Of a stretch of 64,000 nucleotides of DNA, positions 10,741 to 57,831 are shown piece by piece. A program made the position numbers and the translations under genes. The notes beneath the pieces were generated by a model, which was given only the letters and a program-made list of their open reading frames with translations, was not told the origin of the DNA and searched no databases. How positions within the stretch are numbered: position 1 is the first letter of the stretch; each line of letters begins with the position of its first letter. The DNA lies in the NCBI GenBank assembly GCA_029553475.1, contig JAKPKV010000114.1:1-64000 (forward strand), given 5' to 3'. The stretch is from Armatimonadota bacterium (lineage in GTDB: Bacteria > Armatimonadota > Hebobacteria > CAIYQO01).

Positions 10741-11190
10741 CAGCGGACCCCGCGGGCAGCACCGGTCGCCCCCCACCCCCATGTCCCGCAGGGACCGAAG
10801 CCGTTCGCCACGGGTGGAGCGCCAGCGGAACCCGTGGACCCCGGCCCCGCAAACATCCACAGCCCCGCAGGGGCGACAGCGTCCCGTCCCATCGCTACCG
10901 CGGAGCATACGGAATCCTCCTCCTGCAACGTCACCGTCCGCTGCGGCTCGCGCTACCGCTTCATCGCGTCCCATCCGCTCACGCTGCTCGAGGAGGCGCG
11001 GGGCCATCTCCGGTCGGGGCGGCGAATGAATAGGCCATGCTCTCCTCCTGCTGTCGCCCCTGCGGGGCTGTGATGTTTTGCGGGCCGGGGTCCACGGGTT
11101 CCGCTATCGCTCCACCCGTGGCGAACGGCTTCGGTCCCTGCGGGACATGGGGGTGGGGGGCGACCGGGTGCTGCCCACGGGGTCCGCTGG
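10741..11190. repeat. Long inverted repeat, about 140-bp arms (family E)
   Basis: Arms 10741-10879 and 11051-11190 are near-identical in inverted orientation (ccgttcgccacgggtggagcg...ccccgcaggggcgacag). Confidence 0.8.
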
Positions 11191-19229: not shown

Positions 19230-19520
19230 CGCCCACCGGCGGGGCCGGCGCGGAAGGGACAGACTCCGCAGGGCATGGCTGGACGGTGTCCGACACGGGG
19301 CAGCAGCGATGCGCCTGAGAAACTGTCTTGTAAGTGCTCGGTGTCGTCTCGCGGAGGATGGGGCGTGGCTGGCAAGGCGGAGTTCCGAGAGTGTATCGGG
19401 GGGATACATGCCAGGAACTCCAACGCCGCCAGCCACGTCACAGACCCGCGAGACGGCGGCGAGCACTTGCAAGACAGTTTCTGAGTGCGCGTTCGGCCAT
19501 GCGCAGTCAGTCCCGGCGGG
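19230..19520 (-). repeat. Family H repeat interrupted by MITE copy a
   Basis: ccggcgcggaagggacagactccgca...gcagcgatgcgcctga[MITE]tgagtgcgcgttcggccatgcgcagtcagtccc; compare intact copy 39234-39347. Confidence 0.85.
19319..19481. mobile_element. Palindromic MITE-like element, copy a (163 bp, TSD TGA)
   Basis: Ends GAAACTGTCTTG.../...CAAGACAGTTTC; flanked by TGA at 19316-19318 and 19482-19484; self-complementary over most of its length; interrupts a family H repeat. Confidence 0.88.
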
Positions 19521-29684: not shown

Positions 29685-29752
29685 ACTGGGGACTGTCCCC
29701 CTGCACGCCGTGACCAGATGATCCACAGGCCGTTCACCGGGACTGTCCCCAT
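29685..29752 (+). repeat. Family C repeat, copy 3
   Basis: cactggggactgtccccctgcacgccgtgaccagatgatccacaggccgttcaccgggactgtcccc. Confidence 0.8.
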
Positions 29753-29816
29753 ATGCCTAGCTTTAGCGGAGGGGGGAGTGCCGTGCGGAGTTGCTGACGG
29801 TTGCAGACATGCACAA

Positions 29817-29882
29817 TGGGGACAGTCCCGGTGGAGCCCCTGTGGATCATCTGGTTACGGCGTTCAGGGGGACAGTCCCCAT
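29817..29882 (-). repeat. Family C repeat, copy 4 (inverted)
   Basis: tggggacagtcccggtggagcccctgtggatcatctggttacggcgttcagggggacagtcccca. Confidence 0.8.
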
Positions 29883-41455: not shown

Positions 41456-41517
41456 CGACGACCCGTGAAGGCGGTTCTCGCGCGGCCTGCCGTTCGCGGC
41501 GGGTCGCGCTGCGCTAA

Positions 41518-41681
41518 GAGCCTGTTGGTGAGTAGTTGTGTGTCAGATCGCGCCGAGATCGGCGTGTCAGGCGCGACACGATTTGTCGGTCGTATCCCGA
41601 CCCGATACCGCGAACAATCGTGACACAGCCTGGCGCGGCGAGATCGAGCGAGATGGCGAACAACTACTCACCAACAGGCTC
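41518..41681. mobile_element. Palindromic MITE-like element, copy b (164 bp)
   Basis: Ends GAGCCTGTTGGTGAGTAGTTGT / ACAACTACTCACCAACAGGCTC; 5' flank TAA, 3' flank TGC (TSD not intact). Confidence 0.8.
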
Positions 41682-43830: not shown

Positions 43831-43884
43831 CGTACGTACTCCCCCCGTCGTCCGTCCACTGCCCCCCTGATGCGCTGTGCAGAC

Positions 43885-43982
43885 ACCGGGGCCGCGGAGT
43901 TGCACTCCGCACGAGTGCCCTCACTCTGTCGTTGAACACAGAGCGTGCCAACGCGTGCGGAGTGCAACTCCGCGGCCCCGGT
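43885..43982. repeat. Inverted repeat (family D)
   Basis: ACCGGGGCCGCGGAGTTGCACTCCGCACG ... CGTGCGGAGTGCAACTCCGCGGCCCCGGT; related single unit at about 950-975. Confidence 0.85.
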
Positions 43983-44003
43983 GGTGGGCGGAGCATCCCC
44001 CGG

Positions 44004-45134: not shown

Positions 45135-46850
45135 ATGACGGATGGCGTGGGGTCCGTGCCACAAACGCTGCCTGAGATTCAAGCCGAGATCACCGCGCTT
45201 CGCCGCCGCATCGCGGAGCTTGAATGCGCCAAGCAGCGCCTGGAGCCGCCGACGCCGCCCACCACCGAGGGCCGCCCGCGCACCGTCCTCTCCTTGGTGA
45301 ACAGCGACGAGCTGACCGCCACCCTCAGCGCCTTCGTCCGCCGCGTGACCGGCGTACTGCGCGCGGAAAAATGCGTGATTCTCCTCTACGACGACGCCGG
45401 GCGCGCGCTGGTGGCGCAACAGCCGGCGCTCGGTTTCACGGCGGAGGAATTGGCCGACTACCGCGTGTCCATTGACCAGGGCATCGCCGGCGACGTTTTT
45501 CGCGAGAGCCGCGCCATCATCTGCCACGCCTGCGAGGAGGACCCGCGCTGCCAAGAGGAAGCCCTGGGGCGCTTCGCGGTGAAGGACTCCCTCAGCGTGC
45601 CGATGGTGATGGAGCACCGCAACGCGCAGCAGCAGGTGGTGGAGCGCGCCACCATCGGCGTGGTGCACGTCTTCAACAAGCGCTACGGGGCGAAATTCAC
45701 CGAGGAAGACGTGCAGCTGCTCTCCGTCTTCGCGCGCAACGCCACCGCCATCCTCTCCAGCGCGCGCCCCCTGCTGCAGCTGGCCGACGAAAAGCGCCGG
45801 CTCGAATTCACGCTGGAAAGCATGACCTCCGGCCTGCTGGTGATCGCCACCGACGGGCACATCCAGCTCATCAACGCCGCCGCGCAGGCCTCCCTGCGGC
45901 TGGCCTCGCGCGCGGTCATCGGTCAGCCGTTCACCGCGGTGGTGGACGACGCCGCGCTGCGCGATTTCCTGGCGCAGGCGCTGGCGCAGGGCGGCGACCT
46001 GGCGCACGAAATCACCATGGGCGAGCGCATCTGCCAGCTGCAGACCGCCGCCGTGCGCGACCACCGGGGGCAGGTGACCGGCCTGATGTGCGTGATGCAC
46101 GACGTGACCGACCTGCGCAACCTGGAGCGCCTGAAGAGCGACTTCGTCTCCACCGTCTCCCACGAGCTGCGCACGCCGCTCACCGCCATCAAAGGCTTCA
46201 TCCGCACGCTGCTCGACGACCCCGCCGGCGCGTATTTCGACCAGGACACGCGCATGGAGTTCTACGGCATCATTGACGCCGAGTGCGACCGCCTGACGCG
46301 CCTCATCAGCGACCTCTTGAACGTCTCGCGCATCGAGCGCGGCCAGCCGCTGCACCTGCAATACGGCGAGGTGGACGTGCCGGCGTGCGTGGCGCGCGCG
46401 GTGCACCTCCAGCGCAGCTACGCCGACCGGCACACGCTGGAGGTGGAGCTGCCGGACGCGCTGCCGCCGGTCATCGCCGACCGCGACAAGCTCGACCAAA
46501 TCCTCACCAACCTGCTGGGCAACGCGGTGAAATACAGCCCGGAGGGCGGGGTCATCACCACCCGCGTGCGCCGGGAGGGCGAGGCGCTGCTGTTTGCCGT
46601 CAGCGACCAGGGCATCGGCATCCCGCACGACCAACTGGAGAAGATTTTTGACCGCTTCCACCGCGTGTACAGCGGCGACTCACAGCGCGTGGGCGGCACC
46701 GGCATCGGCCTCTTCCTGGTGAAGAGCCTGGTGGAAGCCCACCACGGCGCCATCTGGGTGGAGAGCACGCTGGGCAAAGGCTCCACCTTCTACTTCACCC
46801 TTCCGCTCTCGCCGCCGGGCGCGGAGGCGGCCCCGCGGGCCTCCTCGTGA
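45135..46850 (+). CDS. Sensor histidine kinase (GAF, PAS, HisKA, HATPase_c)
   Basis: STVSHELRTPLTAIKGFIRTLL H-box; NLLGNAVKYSPEGG N-box; VSDQGIGIP; GTGIGLFLVKSLVEAHHG. No adjacent response regulator. Confidence 0.9.
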   Translation: MTDGVGSVPQTLPEIQAEITALRRRIAELECAKQRLEPPTPPTTEGRPRTVLSLVNSDELTATLSAFVRRVTGVLRAEKCVILLYDDAGRALVAQQPALGFTAEELADYRVSIDQGIAGDVFRESRAIICHACEEDPRCQEEALGRFAVKDSLSVPMVMEHRNAQQQVVERATIGVVHVFNKRYGAKFTEEDVQLLSVFARNATAILSSARPLLQLADEKRRLEFTLESMTSGLLVIATDGHIQLINAAAQASLRLASRAVIGQPFTAVVDDAALRDFLAQALAQGGDLAHEITMGERICQLQTAAVRDHRGQVTGLMCVMHDVTDLRNLERLKSDFVSTVSHELRTPLTAIKGFIRTLLDDPAGAYFDQDTRMEFYGIIDAECDRLTRLISDLLNVSRIERGQPLHLQYGEVDVPACVARAVHLQRSYADRHTLEVELPDALPPVIADRDKLDQILTNLLGNAVKYSPEGGVITTRVRREGEALLFAVSDQGIGIPHDQLEKIFDRFHRVYSGDSQRVGGTGIGLFLVKSLVEAHHGAIWVESTLGKGSTFYFTLPLSPPGAEAAPRASS

Positions 46851-46886
46851 CCGCCCAGCCCGCGGAAAAATTTTTTCACCCCCCTC

Positions 46887-46915
46887 TTGACACCGTCCGC
46901 GATCGGTGTTATTCT
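46887..46915 (+). promoter_or_regulatory. Strong sigma70-type promoter of the sulfur locus leader
   Basis: TTGACA-N17-TATTCT. Confidence 0.7.
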
Positions 46916-46921
46916 TACCGC

Positions 46922-47166
46922 ACTGATAGGTTTACTCCGCTATACGGGGTGACCTGGTGGACAAGGCAGGATGGTGACGTGAAGCAGCATGTACCGGGGA
47001 TCACTGTTACGCCGACACGGCACGGGGCCGTGATGACGCGAGCCTGTTGTGATGGCTGTCGCGGCATGGCGGCGCGTGAGCGGTGACCCGGATACGATAA
47101 CCGTGGCTGACTGGACATCCAGAGGCCGAGAGGTATCCCCGGTCGGGGGAACGCTCTCGGCCTTTT
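46922..47166 (+). ncRNA. Candidate structured 5' leader (riboswitch-like) ending in a terminator-like hairpin
   Basis: About 200 nt between the promoter and GGCCGAGAG-GTATCCCCGGTCGGGGGAACG-CTCTCGGCC-TTTT at about 47121-47166; yezD ORF follows. No known Rfam motif recognised by eye. Confidence 0.45.
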
Positions 47167-47240
47167 GTCATGGGGGAGGCCTGTTTTGCTCATCACGCTG
47201 GGCGCGGCAAGCCCCCCGACCCGGCACACTGGTGAGTGAG

Positions 47241-47438
47241 ATGGCACGAACAAACAGGCACCAGGGCGATATACGCGAGCAGGTTGCGATGCGGCACATC
47301 CTGAATGCGATCCGGCGGATGCGTTTCGGCGTCATCACGTTGATCATCCAGGACGGCATCGTGATACAGATTGACCAGACCGAAAAAACGCGGCTGGATT
47401 ATTCCCAGTCGCTGGAGCAGGAAGGCAGCGGCATCTGA
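47241..47438 (+). CDS. YezD-like (DUF2292) small protein
   Basis: ILNAIRRMRFGVITLIIQDGIVIQIDQTEKTRLDY matches the DUF2292/YezD pattern; GTGAGTGAG before ATG. Confidence 0.8.
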   Translation: MARTNRHQGDIREQVAMRHILNAIRRMRFGVITLIIQDGIVIQIDQTEKTRLDYSQSLEQEGSGI

Positions 47439-47490
47439 CGGCCGCGCGGCCTTCCGCGCTCCCACCACGGGCTGACCAGACACCTGGAGG

Positions 47491-47530
47491 CTCAGCAACT
47501 CCCGACGATGCGGGGGTGCTGAGCCTCTTT
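47491..47530 (+). terminator. Hairpin terminator after yezD
   Basis: GAGGCTCAGCA-actcccgacgatgcggggg-TGCTGAGCCTC-TTTGTG. Confidence 0.6.
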
Positions 47531-47537
47531 GTGCTAA

Positions 47538-47699
47538 GAGACTGTTTTCAAAGGGATCGGCGTTGGCTCGCGATGAATGGGGCGTGGCTGGCAAGGCGGA
47601 TGGCCGAGAGTGTACTGGGGAGTACATGCCAGGCCAGCCAACGCGGCCAGGCGCGGCCCAGACCCGTGAGACGGCGGCGAGCACTTTGAAAACAGGCTC
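47538..47699. mobile_element. Palindromic MITE-like element, copy c (162 bp, TSD TAA)
   Basis: Ends GAGACTGTTTTCAAAG / CTTTGAAAACAGGCTC; TAA at 47535-47537 and 47700-47702. Confidence 0.87.
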
Positions 47700-47941
47700 T
47701 AAGACGGCGCGAAAGGAGAAAGGAGATGACGCACATGGCGCAGATCACGACCGGGTTGCCGGGTCTTGGTCTTCGTCACTTCTGTGGCGAACCGGCATAA
47801 CCCTTCCAGACCCCGGTCCGGATTCGCACCAGGAAACCGGACGTTGCCACCGTTGCGCTGTCCCCGTTCCGCATTCTGCGGCACGGGACGAGTCCGCGAA
47901 GAGCCGCGCACTCTTCGGATATCGAATACAGGAGAAAGACG

Positions 47942-49354
<1,413 letters not shown>

Positions 49355-49463
49355 CCTCGGACCACGCCTGACCCGCTCTCCGTCTGCCGCGGAGAGCCGT
49401 CCATGGCCGCTTCCACGGGATTCCCCCCTCCCGTGGAGGCGGTCATGCAAAGGAGGGACGCAC

Positions 49464-50357
49464 ATGGCAAGGCAATTCTTCCGTCTCCGGCAAGCCGGCG
49501 GATGGCTGCTGGCGCTGCTCGTCGTCGCGGCGATACTCCTCTGGTTCCGGCATCCGGGCCAGAGCGCGACCGGCTCCGCGCTCCGCGTCGGTATCCGCCA
49601 TTCCGGCTTGCTGGCCCCCGTCTATCAACTCGCGGACCGCGCGCCCTCGCCGATCACCTTGCGGCCGTTTCTCGCCGATGGCGACATCGGCCTGGCGCTG
49701 CAGAGCGGGGAGATTGACGCGGCGTTCATCGCCGTCGCGCCCGCGCGCCAGCTCCTCACGCGGGGGAATTTTCGGGTGGCGGGCGGCATCGAGTATCCGT
49801 TCTCGGCCACGCTCATCCTCCGCAAGCAGGTCAAGCTCCGCCTCACCGAGCTGGCGGGGCGCACCATCGGCGCGGGGGAGCCGGACTGCGCCTTGCTCAC
49901 GCAGTTTCGCGCCGACGCCAAGAAGCTCGGCGTTGATCTGAGTGCCGTCCGGTTCACCTATCTCCCGGACGACGCGCTGGTGCCGGCGCTGGAAGCCGGG
50001 CGGATTGACGGCGCCATCGTCTCCAGCGCCACGGCGCTGCACGCGGAGGCGCTCGGGCATAAAGTGCTCTACCGCTCGGTGAAAATATCCGGCCATGATC
50101 ACTGCTGCCCGCGCTTCAGCAGGCAGATGGAGCTGCTGCTGGTGGTCCGCCCCGGGCATGCCCCGGCGGTCGCCGCCGTGCGCAAGCAGTTGGTCGCGCT
50201 CTCCCGGGCGGCCACCGCCGATGACGCGCAGCGGGCGATTCTCCGGCATACCGGCTATCCGGCCAGCCTGGTGACGCGCGCGCAGGCGCCGACGTTCAGC
50301 CCGCTCGACGCGGAATGGCGCACGGCGCTCGGGTCGGCCGTCTGGAAGGGGGAGTGA
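49464..50357 (+). CDS. Membrane-anchored NMT1/SsuA-like substrate-binding protein
   Basis: N-terminal TM GGWLLALLVVAAILLWF; LRVGIRHSGLLAPVYQLADR...LQSGEIDAAFIAVAPARQLLTRG. Confidence 0.8.
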   Translation: MARQFFRLRQAGGWLLALLVVAAILLWFRHPGQSATGSALRVGIRHSGLLAPVYQLADRAPSPITLRPFLADGDIGLALQSGEIDAAFIAVAPARQLLTRGNFRVAGGIEYPFSATLILRKQVKLRLTELAGRTIGAGEPDCALLTQFRADAKKLGVDLSAVRFTYLPDDALVPALEAGRIDGAIVSSATALHAEALGHKVLYRSVKISGHDHCCPRFSRQMELLLVVRPGHAPAVAAVRKQLVALSRAATADDAQRAILRHTGYPASLVTRAQAPTFSPLDAEWRTALGSAVWKGE

Positions 50358-50358
50358 G

Positions 50359-51240
50359 ATGCGCGCCGTCAACACCTCCCCGCCGGCCGGACATCAGGTC
50401 AGCCGCGCGTCATCCCCGCACGAGTATCACGCGCGGGGCTGGAATCTCGTCTGGCGCGAGGTTGCCGCCTTCACGACCGGCGCCTTCGGCAGCCTGGTGA
50501 CGCGGGAATTTCTCACCATCGCCGTGCCCCTGCTGCTGCTGTGGGAGCTGCTGCCGCGCCTGGGGGTGGTGCCCAAGACGCTGGTGCCGCCGTTGACAAC
50601 GGTCGCCGCCAGCGCCTGGGACCTGGTGCAGCACGGGCATCTCGCGCAGCATATCGTGGCCAGCCTCAAACGCCTGGCCATCGGGTTGTCCCTCGCCCTG
50701 CTGCTGGCCTTTCCGCTGGGCGTGCTGATGGGGTGGAACCCCTATCTTCGGAAGCATCTGCTGCCGCTGTTCCAATTGCTGGCGCCCATCCCGCCGCCGG
50801 CCTGGGTGCCGATCACCATCATCGTGCTGGGAGTCGGCTGGCGCATGCAGACGTTTCTGATCTTTCTGGGGGCGTTCTATCCGATCCTCTTCAACACCTA
50901 TCAGGGGGTCAAGGATACCGACCCGCGCTACCTGGCCTCGGCGCGCGTCTTCGGCGCCAGCGAGTGGACGCTGATTCGCGCCGTCTACATCCCCCACGCG
51001 CTGGGCTCAGTGGTGATGGGGATCAAGATCGGCATCGCGATGGCGCTGGTGATGCTGGTGATCGCCGAGATGTACGGCACGCAGATCGGGGTCGGGCGTC
51101 TGCTGTCGGAATCCAAAGAATATTTCCGCATCGAGCGCATGGTCGTCTGCATGGCGATCCTCGGCGCATTGGGATGGTTTCTCATTGAAATCATGAAGTA
51201 TCTGGAAGCCAAGCTGGCGCTCTGGCGCGTGGGACGATGA
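50359..51240 (+). CDS. ABC transporter permease (sulfonate/nitrate/taurine type)
   Basis: SLKRLAIGLSLALLLAFPLGVLMGW; PPPAWVPITIIVLGVGWRMQTFLIFLGAFYPILFNTYQGVKDTD; EYFRIERMVVCMAILGALGW. Confidence 0.88.
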   Translation: MRAVNTSPPAGHQVSRASSPHEYHARGWNLVWREVAAFTTGAFGSLVTREFLTIAVPLLLLWELLPRLGVVPKTLVPPLTTVAASAWDLVQHGHLAQHIVASLKRLAIGLSLALLLAFPLGVLMGWNPYLRKHLLPLFQLLAPIPPPAWVPITIIVLGVGWRMQTFLIFLGAFYPILFNTYQGVKDTDPRYLASARVFGASEWTLIRAVYIPHALGSVVMGIKIGIAMALVMLVIAEMYGTQIGVGRLLSESKEYFRIERMVVCMAILGALGWFLIEIMKYLEAKLALWRVGR

Positions 51241-51244
51241 GACG

Positions 51245-52117
51245 ATGATTGAAGCGAGACGGATCACCAAATTTTTCTCGGTCGTGAATGCACACCAGAT
51301 TGCGGCCGGGGTGACGGCCGTGCTGTCGGCCTCCCTGACCATCGAGGATGGGCAGTTCATCTCGCTCGTCGGGGCGTCCGGCTGCGGGAAATCCACCTTC
51401 CTCGAAATCCTCGCGGGATTGCAGGCGCCGACGGACGGCGAGGTCTATATTGACGGCAAGCTCGTGCTGGAGCCGTTGCCGAGCACCCGGCGCGAGATGG
51501 ACGCGTATCGTGAGAAGTATCGCTTCCTCTCGCCGATTGCCAACGGGCTGATTCGCGATAATCCCAAGCATGATATCGCGATGATCTTCCAGGACTACGC
51601 GGTCTTCCCCTGGATGACCGTGCAGCAGAACGTGCTGTTCACGCTGGAGCTGCGCGGGGTGCCGCGCGCGGAACGGGCGCCGCTGGCGCAACGCTACCTG
51701 CAGCAGGTCGGCTTGCTGGGCAGCGAAGACAAGTATCCCTCACAACTGTCCGGGGGGATGCGGCAGCGCCTGGCGCTGGCCCGCGCGCTGTCCGTGGAAC
51801 CGAAAATCATCCTCATGGACGAGCCGTTCGCCGCCGTGGACGCCATCACGCGGGAAAAGCTGCAGGACGATCTGCTGCGGCTCTGGCAGGATACCGGCCG
51901 CACCATCGTGATGGTGACCCACGATCTGGATGAGGCGCTGTATCTCTCGGATGCAATCGTGGTGTTCTCCCCCCTGCCGGGGACGATCCGCAATCGCCTC
52001 CCGGTCGAGGTGCCGCGCCCGCGACGACGAGACAGCGCCGAATTGGCCGAGCTCCGCGCGCGCATTCAGGCCATCTATCATTACGACATGCATGGCGAAA
52101 GCGAGTATGTCGGATAA
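51245..52117 (+). CDS. ABC transporter ATP-binding protein (sulfonate/nitrate/taurine type)
   Basis: LVGASGCGKSTFLEILAGLQAPTDGEV; QLSGGMRQRLALARAL; ILMDEPFAAVDAITR. Confidence 0.93.
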   Translation: MIEARRITKFFSVVNAHQIAAGVTAVLSASLTIEDGQFISLVGASGCGKSTFLEILAGLQAPTDGEVYIDGKLVLEPLPSTRREMDAYREKYRFLSPIANGLIRDNPKHDIAMIFQDYAVFPWMTVQQNVLFTLELRGVPRAERAPLAQRYLQQVGLLGSEDKYPSQLSGGMRQRLALARALSVEPKIILMDEPFAAVDAITREKLQDDLLRLWQDTGRTIVMVTHDLDEALYLSDAIVVFSPLPGTIRNRLPVEVPRPRRRDSAELAELRARIQAIYHYDMHGESEYVG

Positions 52118-52129
52118 GCGAAAGCGAGC

Positions 52130-53122
52130 ATGACGATGACGACACATGACGAACAGGGTACGCGCACGTCGCTGCCGACGTTCCGGCAGACGATCTATCC
52201 CGATATCACGGCGGCCATCGGGCGCAGTCCATTGGTGCGGCTGCAGCGGCTGGCCGCGGATACCGGCGTGCGCCTGGCCGCCAAGCTGGAGGCCTTCAAT
52301 CCGGCGAGCAGCGTGAAATGCCGCATCGGCGCGGCCATGCTGGCCGCCGCGGAGCGCGACGGCAAACTGCGCCCCGGCATGACGGTCATCGAGCCGACGA
52401 GCGGCAACACCGGCATCGGCCTGGCGTTCGCCTGCGCGGCGAAAGGCTACCGGCTCATCCTGACGATGCCGGAAACGATGACCATCGAACGGCGCAAGCT
52501 GGTGGCCATGCTGGGGGCGGAGCTGGTGCTGACGCCGGGCACGCAGGGGATGGCGGGCGCGGTGGCCAAGGCGCGTGAGCTGCAGCGCCAGTTGCCGAGC
52601 AGCTTCCTGCCGATGCAGTTCGATAACCCGGCCAATCCGCAGGTCCACCGGGACACGACCGCGGAAGAGATCTGGGCGGATACGCAGGGCGCGGTGGATC
52701 TCTTCGTCGCCGGCGTGGGCACCGGCGGCACGATCACCGGGGTTGCCGAAGTCATCAAGCGCCGCAAGCCCGCCTTTCAGGCCATCGCCGTGGAGCCGGA
52801 TGCCTCTCCGGTGCTCTCCGGCGGGCAGCCCGGACCGCACCGCATCCAGGGGATTGGCGCCGGTTTCATCCCCAAGGTGCTGAATCGCGGCGTCATTGAC
52901 CGCGTCATCCGCGTGACGAACGACGACGCCTTCGCCGCCGCCCGCCGGGCCGCCCGCGAGGAAGGCATCCTCTGCGGCATCTCCAGCGGCGCGGCGCTGT
53001 GGGCCGCCCTGCAGCTCGCGCGGGAGCCGGCGCAGCGCGGGAAACTCATCGTCGTCATGTTCCCCGACTCCGGCGAGCGCTACCTGACGACGCAGTTGTC
53101 GGAGATGGCCACCTCATCGTAA
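52130..53122 (+). CDS. cysK: Cysteine synthase
   Basis: [91 protein letters not shown]. Stop TAA lies in the TSD of MITE copy d. Confidence 0.92.
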
Positions 53123-53284
53123 GAAACGGTCTTGAACGTGCTCGCCACCATCTCGCTGGTCTGGCTCGCGTCTGGCAGCGTTGGAGTTCCTACCATGTAT
53201 CACCCGACACACTCCCGGAACTCCGCCTAGCCAGCCACGACCCATCCGCAGCGATCTGGCACCGATCACGTTCAAGACCGTTTC
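53123..53284. mobile_element. Palindromic MITE-like element, copy d (162 bp, TSD TAA, opposite orientation)
   Basis: Ends GAAACGGTCTTGAACGTG / CACGTTCAAGACCGTTTC; TAA at 53120-53122 and 53285-53287. Confidence 0.87.
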
Positions 53285-53305
53285 TAACACGGGTGACGCG
53301 GTTCG

Positions 53306-56300
53306 TCACTCCCCGAAGCCGATGGTCACCCCCTCCGTGACCGGCAGGCCGTAATCGTCCGCGAGGCGAACGTAGAAGCTCCAGCCTTCCCAGGCGCACT
53401 GGGTGCGGAGGAGGAGGGTGTTCTCGCCCTTCTTCAGGGTCACCGTCATGCGGTCCTGGTCGGGGGCGGCGGCGCGGAAGACGTGCGTGCTGAACACCTT
53501 TTCGCCGTTGAGCCAGAGCACCAGGCCCTGGTCGCCGCCGGTATAGAGGGTGACGGCGCGCTTGCGGTCGGAGGTGATCTTCGTATACGCGTAGGCCACC
53601 GCGCCCTTGTTCGGCTGCAGCAGGCGCTCCATGCGCACCGGGCCGTCGCCGAGGGCGGGCTGGCCCGGCTGCAGGATGCGCGTCCAGCGCGCCGGCTTCT
53701 CCACCTCTTTGCCGTCCACGCGGTCAAAACCGGCGTAGACGGCGTTCGGATCAAACCCCTTCTCCGGGCCGAAGTCGGTGAGGGTCGCCGTCCAAGGCTC
53801 GTCGCGGCGCGGGAAGGCGCCGGCCACGTACCAGTCGTGCACGTATTGCGGGCGGGATTCCGGCCGGTGCAGCGCCGCCAGCGTGGCCTGCGCGCGCAGC
53901 GCGCGCTCCGCCAGCGCCTTGCCCGCCGCCGGCTTCGCGACCAGCGGGATGAGGTAGGCGGTCTCGCCGTCCACCGTCACGGCGGCGGGGTTCGTCAGCG
54001 GGGCGCCATTGAGCTCGACGGTCGGGGCCTCCCGCAGGCCGAAGACGAGGAGCGCGGTGGCCATGTCCGGCGTGTTCTGCCCGTCCTTCACCCCGTAGTT
54101 CACCCACACTTTCCCCTCCGCCGGGCGCACGATGCAGCGCAGCAGGCCCACGCGGCCATCCGCCCGCACGCGGGCGCCGCCGGGGGCGTCCAGCGCCCAC
54201 AGCGCGGCGTCGGGCAGCGGGTTGAAGCCGGCGTAGGTGCCGGTGATGGGCTCGGTCTGCAGGTAGGCCATGCGGCCCGGCGTGCAGGTGAGCGTCGCGC
54301 CGTTCTTCTCCAGCCGCCCGGTGGTGCCCTGCTGGGTGAGATTGCTGTCGCGGTCCATCCCCTCCGGCAGGTAGGGCCATTGCGCGTTCACCGACCGATG
54401 GGTGAAGCATTCGGTGGTGGGCACCGCCTGCCAGGCGTAGGTCTGGTAGGCGGGCTTGAAGCCGATGGAGAGGGCGTCCGCGCCGATGGTGCAGTCCACC
54501 ATCACCGCCTTCGCCGCCGCGTCCCAGCGGTGCGCCAGCGTCATGCCGTCGAAGGAAGCCTTGAACGCCTCGAAGGTGGGATATTCCGTCACGTCCGCCA
54601 CTGTGACGATGAAGCCGCCGTAGGCCTGGTCAATCTTGTCGGCATCCACGCCCGCCTGCGCCAGCGTCTTCGCCGAGCGGTAGTTATACTGGTTGATGAG
54701 CAGCGCCGGCTTCGTGCGCCCGCCGCCCTGGAGGTTTTCCAACGGCGCGTCCGCCGAGATCACCACCTCGGCGTCCCGGCCCAGGTCAGTGGAGGGCAGC
54801 GGGATGAGCGCCAGGTAGCTGACGCCGTCCTTGAGCCAGATTTTGTCGCCGGCCTTGCACGTCACCGGGAAGCGCGTCACGCGCTGGTCGTTCACGTACA
54901 GCTCCCAGGTGGGCTGCGGCTGGAAGCAGAACAGGCCCAGCGTGGTCTGCAGGCTGGTGTCCTTGTCCGGCGCGATGGTGTGGTACGGCTCATTCGCGAT
55001 GCGCGGATCCAGCGGGCTGCTCAGCAGCAGCATGGTGTTTTTGTGCTGCAGGGTGACCAGGTTGCCGCCGCCGGAGACCACCGTGCCGCCGTCCTCGGTG
55101 AGGAGCACGGGGGTGTTGCGCGTGTAGCGCGCCAGCAGCGTGCCGGTGTCCTGCACCGTCCGCACCGGGCCGGGCACGCGCTTCCACTGCACCATGGCCG
55201 GCACGCTTTCGCCGCGCGGCACGTCAATGCTGCTCATGCCGTAGTGGCGGCCCAGATACGAGCGCTTCCACAGCGGCGTCTCGGCAAAATGGCCCCACTC
55301 CTTGGCGGAGGTGGTCATCTCGTAGGGCAGCGGCTTTTCGTCCACCATGTTGGCGGCCCATTCCGGCGCCCAGGGGCCGGTGCGCGTCTGCAGCGCGATG
55401 CGCCCGGCGGGGGCGTTGTAGTCGTAGCGGGTCATGCCGTGGATATCCGGGTTGCCGACGTCGTGCAGCGTGCCGGCCCGCGAGAGGGTGTGGATGATAT
55501 GCTCCAGCCCGCCCTGGGTGACCCAGAGGAAGCTTAAGCCCGTGCGGCCCGAGGGGGTGATGAAGCGCTTGAGGCCAGGATGCCAGCAGGAGGTGAGCTC
55601 TTCCACCGATTTGGCGAGGATGCTCTGCCCCATCAGCCGGTCGAACTCGGTGGGGCCGAAATCGGCGAACATCTTCTGCCCGCTCAGGGTGATGGAGAAG
55701 TAATAGTGGTCAATGGACTCCTGCGTGGTGCCGTCGTACCACGCCCACAGGCGCAGCGGCAGGTATTCCAGCCCGTGGCGGCCGTCGGCGATGGCGCGCG
55801 CGCTGCCGATGATGTCGCCGCCGAGCAGCGCGCCCATGGCGGCGGTGTGATTGAAATTCATCGTCGAGATGACGTAGTTGTACCCGCCGCGGAAGAAGGA
55901 CTTGTTGCCGCGCCAGTCCCCCGTCTGCTCGTAATAGTCGGTGTTCTGCTTGCTCTGCGCGTGGAGGAATTGCTCCGTCGGGCGGTCGGGCATGAGCCAG
56001 GAATCCCAGTAGGCGCGGATATTCTCCTTGGTGGGCTCGGCGAACATGTCCTTATACAGATACCAGAGCAACAGGTCGTCCTGAATGCCCCAGCCTTTCC
56101 AGTAGCGCGGCACCGTCATGGCGATATCGCGGGTGAACTTGTCATACTTCTTCAGGTCGCCGGATTCCAACGGCTCCACGAACTCCACGCCGCCGCCGAT
56201 CCGCTGCAGCTCGCGCACGCGCGCCCACTGCCAGTCCGGCATCCACGCCGGCTGCCGCGCGGCATGGCGGGCAACCAGCGCCTGCAACTCCGCATCGGTG

Positions 56301-57667: not shown

Positions 57668-57831
57668 GGGTGTCTCCTTACTTGTATCGTTCAAAACCTG
57701 GCTCACCTCTCCCCCCAGCCCCCTCCCCTAACTGGGGAGGGGGAGTGAGTGGACTGGCATACCGGTATGTTCTCCACAACCGCCTGCTCCCCTCTCCGCT
57801 TAGGGGAGGGGGCTGGGGGCATACGCGTCAT

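Follow-up and report, generated by a model that had tools for sequence, protein, structure and literature searches.

Ordinary MITEs conserve mainly their ends, and the hairpins of bacterial MITEs are usually described as by-products of their inverted repeats. As a more remote analogy, structured nucleic acids tied to mobile elements include the guide RNAs of IS605-type elements and the bridge RNA of IS110. ERIC, Correia/NEMIS, RUP and related elements are palindromic mobile elements of 100-200 bp whose transcripts form long stem-loops, and stem-loop transcripts have been described for most bacterial MITEs (PMC2229807, PMC10969869). In REPINs, which are hairpin-forming REP doublets linked to RAYT, compensatory changes are reported to be common, and selection on the hairpin has been proposed (PMC3116915). 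The elements described here are likewise small palindromic mobile units forming a hairpin, but with a length of 162-165 bp they exceed REPINs, and in place of REP heads and a RAYT transposase they have IS5-type ends and a target duplication. They differ from ERIC, Correia/NEMIS and RUP in sequence, target and host, and also by strand-specific mispair statistics that are independent of gene direction. Unlike the IS605 and IS110 systems, they have no linked nuclease or recombinase gene, and no guide region was identified in them. With IS5-family MITEs of the IS1031/IS427 type, they share GARNCTGT ends, a 3-bp TNA duplication and a DUF4096 remnant with a matching end; unlike those MITEs, they keep a single-strand fold that spans the full length, its internal loops fixed in position, across sequence-unrelated families.

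The 64,000-nucleotide stretch of Armatimonadota DNA analysed here (hereafter the window) harbours four such elements (Table 1). Their coordinates and lengths, as well as their TNA flanks, agree with a preliminary description of this DNA, and the ends given by the covariance model are identical. That description regarded the four copies as one uniform sequence family, a view that was not supported, as DNA searches set copy b (family F2) apart from copies a, c and d (family F1). Copy d is inverted with respect to copies a and c.

Table 1. Coordinates of the elements in the window, with their flanks and loops, and F1 copies with exchangeable apical cassettes
Feature	Positions or loci	Strand	Description	Score
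Copy a	19319-19481	+	Family F1, 163 bp	Covariance model 172.9 bits, E=8e-47
TSD of copy a, 5'	19316-19318	.	TGA, same as 19482-19484	
TSD of copy a, 3'	19482-19484	.	TGA	
Copy b	41518-41681	+	Family F2, 164 bp; F1-like architecture, other sequence	79.3 bits on +, 22.7 on -
5' flank of copy b	41515-41517	.	TAA; 3' flank TGC, without duplication	
Copy c	47538-47699	+	Family F1, 162 bp; ends GAGACTGTTTTCAAAG, near the end of the IS5 remnant	
TSD of copy c, 5'	47535-47537	.	TAA	
TSD of copy c, 3'	47700-47702	.	TAA	
Copy d	53123-53284	-	Family F1, 162 bp	Covariance model 170.7 bits, E=3e-46
TSD of copy d	53120-53122	.	TAA; doubles as stop codon of upstream ORF 52130-53122	
Second TSD of copy d	53285-53287	.	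TAA	
First tandem G.A internal loop of copy d, 5' side (element positions 29-30)	53255-53256	-	Partner 53151-53152; consensus pairing, position inferred from alignment	
Second tandem G.A internal loop of copy d, 5' side (element positions 39-40)	53245-53246	-	Partner 53160-53161; consensus pairing, position inferred from alignment	
F1 copies with exchangeable apical cassettes	L003, L014, L019, L020, L038, L043, L147, L148; L004, L005, L039, L041, L044			

Other features of the window include further long palindromes with arms of 31-96 nt (10762-11167, 29687-29881, 43884-43983 and 57712-57819), which the superfamily model does not recognise; the genome seems to be rich in palindromic repeats. 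The block that carries copies c and d (~46830-53310) is absent from contig 144 of genome G001, in which the matching flanks are approximately 160 bp apart. Positions 47942-48241 correspond to a prepilin-type N-terminal sequence, with many similar stretches in related genomes; a prepilin-type protein of the window is similar to proteins associated with Armatimonadota.

A DNA search with copy a yielded ~40 more places in the 5.27-Mb genome, in which F1 comprises ~45 copies. The same search with copy b retrieved nine F2 relatives and effectively no a-type copies; F2 has ~9 copies in the genome, four of which are cut by contig ends. The covariance-model search that the preliminary description had proposed, performed with a model built from 38 F1 copies, linked copy b to F1 by a full-length match (E=2e-20) and added two families, F3, with ~21 copies in the same genome, and F4, a 165-nt family found among the 29, 38 and 31 matches in three other genomes of the taxonomic family. 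The superfamily is present in four of the four genomes of this taxonomic family, with >100 copies in total, and the F1 model matched none of the 288 other genomes of the phylum at strict filter settings. Among public species genomes, the exact core pattern was found only in one lake-metagenome bin, evidently identical to G003, and it had no match in the contigs of the virus collection. Rfam gave no family match within the window, and the best of five representative loci was far under the gathering threshold. The copies are non-coding, mostly 161-166 bp long and number ~75 in the genome, in keeping with the size (<500 bp) and copy number of MITEs. Longer variants, in which one 3'-arm internal loop holds additional small hairpins, are found in G003 (L158-L166, 207 nt) and G001 (L177, L178 and L180, ~217 nt); these hairpins fall in loops, and the stems stay intact.

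Traces of mobility are abundant. In the four genomes, 122 copies have both flanks present, and TNA occurs at 103 of the 5' and 100 of the 3' flanks (2.8% by chance), with identical TNA pairs around 70 copies (TAA 30, TTA 19, TGA 12, TCA 9). One F1 copy (L016) is nested within another (L017) and bounded by a duplicated TGA; once the insert is removed, L017 measures 162 nt. The terminal inverted repeats form an outer helix of 16 pairs, in which 93.6% of cells are paired. As to the IS5-family transposase with matching TIRs whose search had been suggested, the same genome harbours the degraded start of a DUF4096 (IS5-type) transposase gene, with stops, the left end of which (TCA followed by GAAACTGTTTTCAAAGTG) matches that of copy c; this remnant supplies only ~44 residues of the transposase and one end, and none of the four genomes yielded an intact IS5 partner. 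Four of the six intact plasmid IS5 relatives examined have TIRs and a TAA or TGA duplication, and their TIRs (GAGACCGTTTTGAAAA, GAGGCTGTTTGGAAAA, GAATCCGTTGGGAAAG) are similar to the MITE ends. The ends, the TNA duplications, the transposase remnant and the plasmid relatives together identify the elements as IS5-mobilised MITEs, as had been surmised from their ends and TNA duplications.

Other putative partners were discarded. The DDE_Tnp_1 match in contig 124 of G000 belongs to an unrelated insertion sequence, an IS1182-like element (L045, 1-1870) with the ends ATGATTCCCCGGCAA, and the DDE_Tnp_1 matches in G001 and G003 showed no ends matching those of the MITEs. Of separate interest, a LacI-type regulator with a DUF4096 stretch (transposase N-domain) fused at its C-terminus is present in two copies in a single genome, G002 (L216:376-1770(+) and L218, on contigs 179 and 99).

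The variation of the plasmid IS5 TIRs indicates that the variation of the outer arms partly mirrors that among IS5 elements. The elements might even be ordinary IS5 MITEs, whose outer 16-18 bp track different transposases and whose remainder is a selectively neutral leftover from an inverted duplication in their ancestor. The end variants do resemble IS5 TIR variants, such as GTCCGGAAAG, shared by F3 and a Rhizobium IS5 relative, but the strong covariation in the interior (columns 28-135, 42-122, 66-97 and 75-88), the persistence of loop positions across families with unrelated stems and a bias in interior mispairs described below make this the reading to which we give least credence.

The preliminary description had noted that complementarity within a copy exceeds identity between copies. 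In the F1 arms, the two values are 0.872 and 0.738, respectively, a difference far beyond chance, and cross-copy complementarity is 0.728. Pairing is found in 93.4% of the cells of the F1 alignment, vs 81.0% after shuffling and 37-46% after sliding. Double changes amount to 240 cells vs 78.5 in shuffles and affect 31 of 52 pairs, an excess of compensatory pairs as opposed to the random arm mismatches of ordinary repeats. Among the 40 column pairs with the strongest covariation, 14 are in register, vs ~0.25 by chance. With a home-made tree-based null modelled on R-scape, 9 of 78 F1 pairs, both interior and near the ends, but only one pair in F3 and two in F4 are significant; recombination between copies weakens these and all other tree-based counts. 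Arm covariation is thus real, and covariation beyond phylogeny is clear in F1 and weak in F3 and F4, which have diverged less.

Two explanations had been offered for the maintenance of the hairpin, selection and palindrome-templated correction. In the latter, template switching at replication would copy one arm onto the other without any selection on the fold. In the four alignments, copies that are <5% diverged show 180 one-sided vs 12 two-sided pair differences, while at 25-30% divergence the two-sided changes equal or outnumber the one-sided ones and mostly lead from one Watson-Crick pair to another. As two-sided changes rise with divergence, compensation comes after mutation, and such gradual compensation is more readily explained by selection than by an instant correction from a template, with which the near absence of two-sided changes in close copies is at odds. 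Templated correction would also erase the conserved internal loops, above all the tandem G.A, and as repair is strand-symmetric it does not account for mispairs biased 2:1 between strands. Selection is favoured because compensation is gradual and because tolerance of mispairs is strand-specific, which is impossible for strand-symmetric repair.

Templated or recombinational exchange of blocks is still visible locally, in the middle stem of F4 and in apical cassettes. The middle stem of F4 copies L191-L207 (positions 47-70 and 99-124) occurs in several block types with matching arms, so that entire blocks vary jointly in the two arms (e.g. CTGGTCTTGGGG vs GGTCCCTGCCGGG), and L207 is a chimaera combining arms of two block types, pointing to recombination between copies. 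F1 has three apical cassettes, exchangeable on different arm backgrounds: GTGTAT..ATACAT, CCCGATAGCATCGGGAT and a third, longer by 27 nt, with CCATCAGGATGATGG. Such blocks, chimaera and cassettes speak for templated correction, which we nevertheless judge improbable as the explanation of the hairpins; of the two mechanisms first envisaged, selection is the one we favour for a hairpin kept across divergent copies, templated correction being disfavoured. Some F4 copies have a tip loop (CAAGACC, CAGGCCC) with apparent complementarity to their own stem.

The mispairs that interrupt the hairpins point to one strand. In the four alignments, new G.T mispairs outnumber A.C ones (113 vs 56 independent origins, p=1.4e-5), as do new G.A mispairs relative to C.T (81 vs 38, p=1e-4); the F1 model, from which F2-F4 took their orientation, includes G-U pairs, and this orientation may share the bias of the model, whereas that of F1 was not so assigned. 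In F4 alone, the G.T excess is weak (19:15 vs A.C). The C>T/G>A rate ratio is 2.04 at paired and 0.66 at unpaired sites, with an unpaired C>T count of only 6, and this control rules out a mutational strand bias as the cause of the G.T excess. The excess is also present in the interior (74:44), which speaks against ordinary IS5 MITEs. On the + strand, purine faces purine in the conserved internal loops, with G.A vs C.T ratios of 325:43 in F1, 253:12 in F3 and 152:11 in F4. Loop positions are common to families with unrelated stems, and a tandem G.A module, GGAU/AGAC, read by eye from the sequences, recurs in F1, F2 and F4. The fold of the + strand is the more stable one for all but one of the 98 copies in the four alignments, with average differences of 12-22 kcal/mol; the reservation on the orientation of F2-F4 applies here too. 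Recurrence of mismatches at each helical turn was considered as well; it fits F1 and fails in F3 and F4. Because the mispairs are strand-biased and the bias is absent at unpaired sites, the conserved object is the RNA or ssDNA fold of one strand; RNA and a strand-specific ssDNA of one strand would leave the same signatures.

That fold could in principle serve the host, each resident copy being kept as a 3'-end hairpin or regulator of flanking transcripts in the manner of ERIC or Correia elements, with selection acting on its read-through RNA. The copies are indeed intergenic, and the TNA target is the stop codon (TAA/TGA) of a neighbouring gene in ~24 of 122 loci by rough gene calls, including that of copy d, with the stop retained. 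The G.T excess is found on terminal branches too (G.T:A.C 86:48, vs 34:16 on internal branches), and the two ratios do not differ. However, the orientation of the elements relative to flanking genes, also from rough gene calls, is near random (++ 28, -- 22), and the same bias is observed where read-through would give the opposite strand, with G.T:A.C of 31:14 where the neighbouring genes are antisense to the copy and 35:21 where they are in sense. Moreover, none of the insertion sites examined is shared between genomes, one alignment being too diverged to reveal an empty site, and the one-sided differences of young copies are those expected of decay after insertion. We therefore regard a host-level function as unlikely. 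Since the strand bias is independent of the direction of neighbouring genes, the selected object is likely a single-stranded form used by the element itself; the antisense/sense comparison and the decay of young copies make a need of the element itself more plausible than a use of read-through RNA by the host.

On balance, it is somewhat probable that these elements are IS5-mobilised MITEs whose hairpin is kept as the fold of one strand, likely serving their own spread. Mobilisation in trans of these non-autonomous elements of ~162-165 bp, by an IS5-family (DUF4096-type) transposase recognising GARNCTGT... ends and generating TNA duplications, is supported by their ends and duplications, the nested insertion and the transposase remnant. 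Within these ends, a hairpin of nearly full length carries internal loops at fixed positions, including the tandem G.A GGAU/AGAC. As the statistics show, mutations first affect a single arm, and surviving lineages gain the compensating change later, so that the arms seem to change together. The selected form would most likely be a putative + strand transcript of the element; a strand-specific ssDNA intermediate appears less likely. Such a single-stranded form may be needed for, or helpful to, the spread of the element. More tentatively, these families may represent a superfamily of bacterial DDE-type MITEs whose spread requires a defined fold of one strand, RNA or ssDNA, a structured nucleic acid that would act with the IS5 transposase and has been kept although nearly all of the sequence was replaced, in four families or more.

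These analyses give good support to a new superfamily of IS5-type MITEs in which the fold of one strand is under selection. As far as a limited literature search shows, its new aspects are the strand-specific statistics and an architecture common to sequence-unrelated families. The >100 copies permit a quantitative test, whose result points to selection on the fold of one strand independent of host transcription. If this is true, a role of the structure of a non-autonomous element in DDE transposition could be tested directly, and the natural compensatory variants would provide ready controls.
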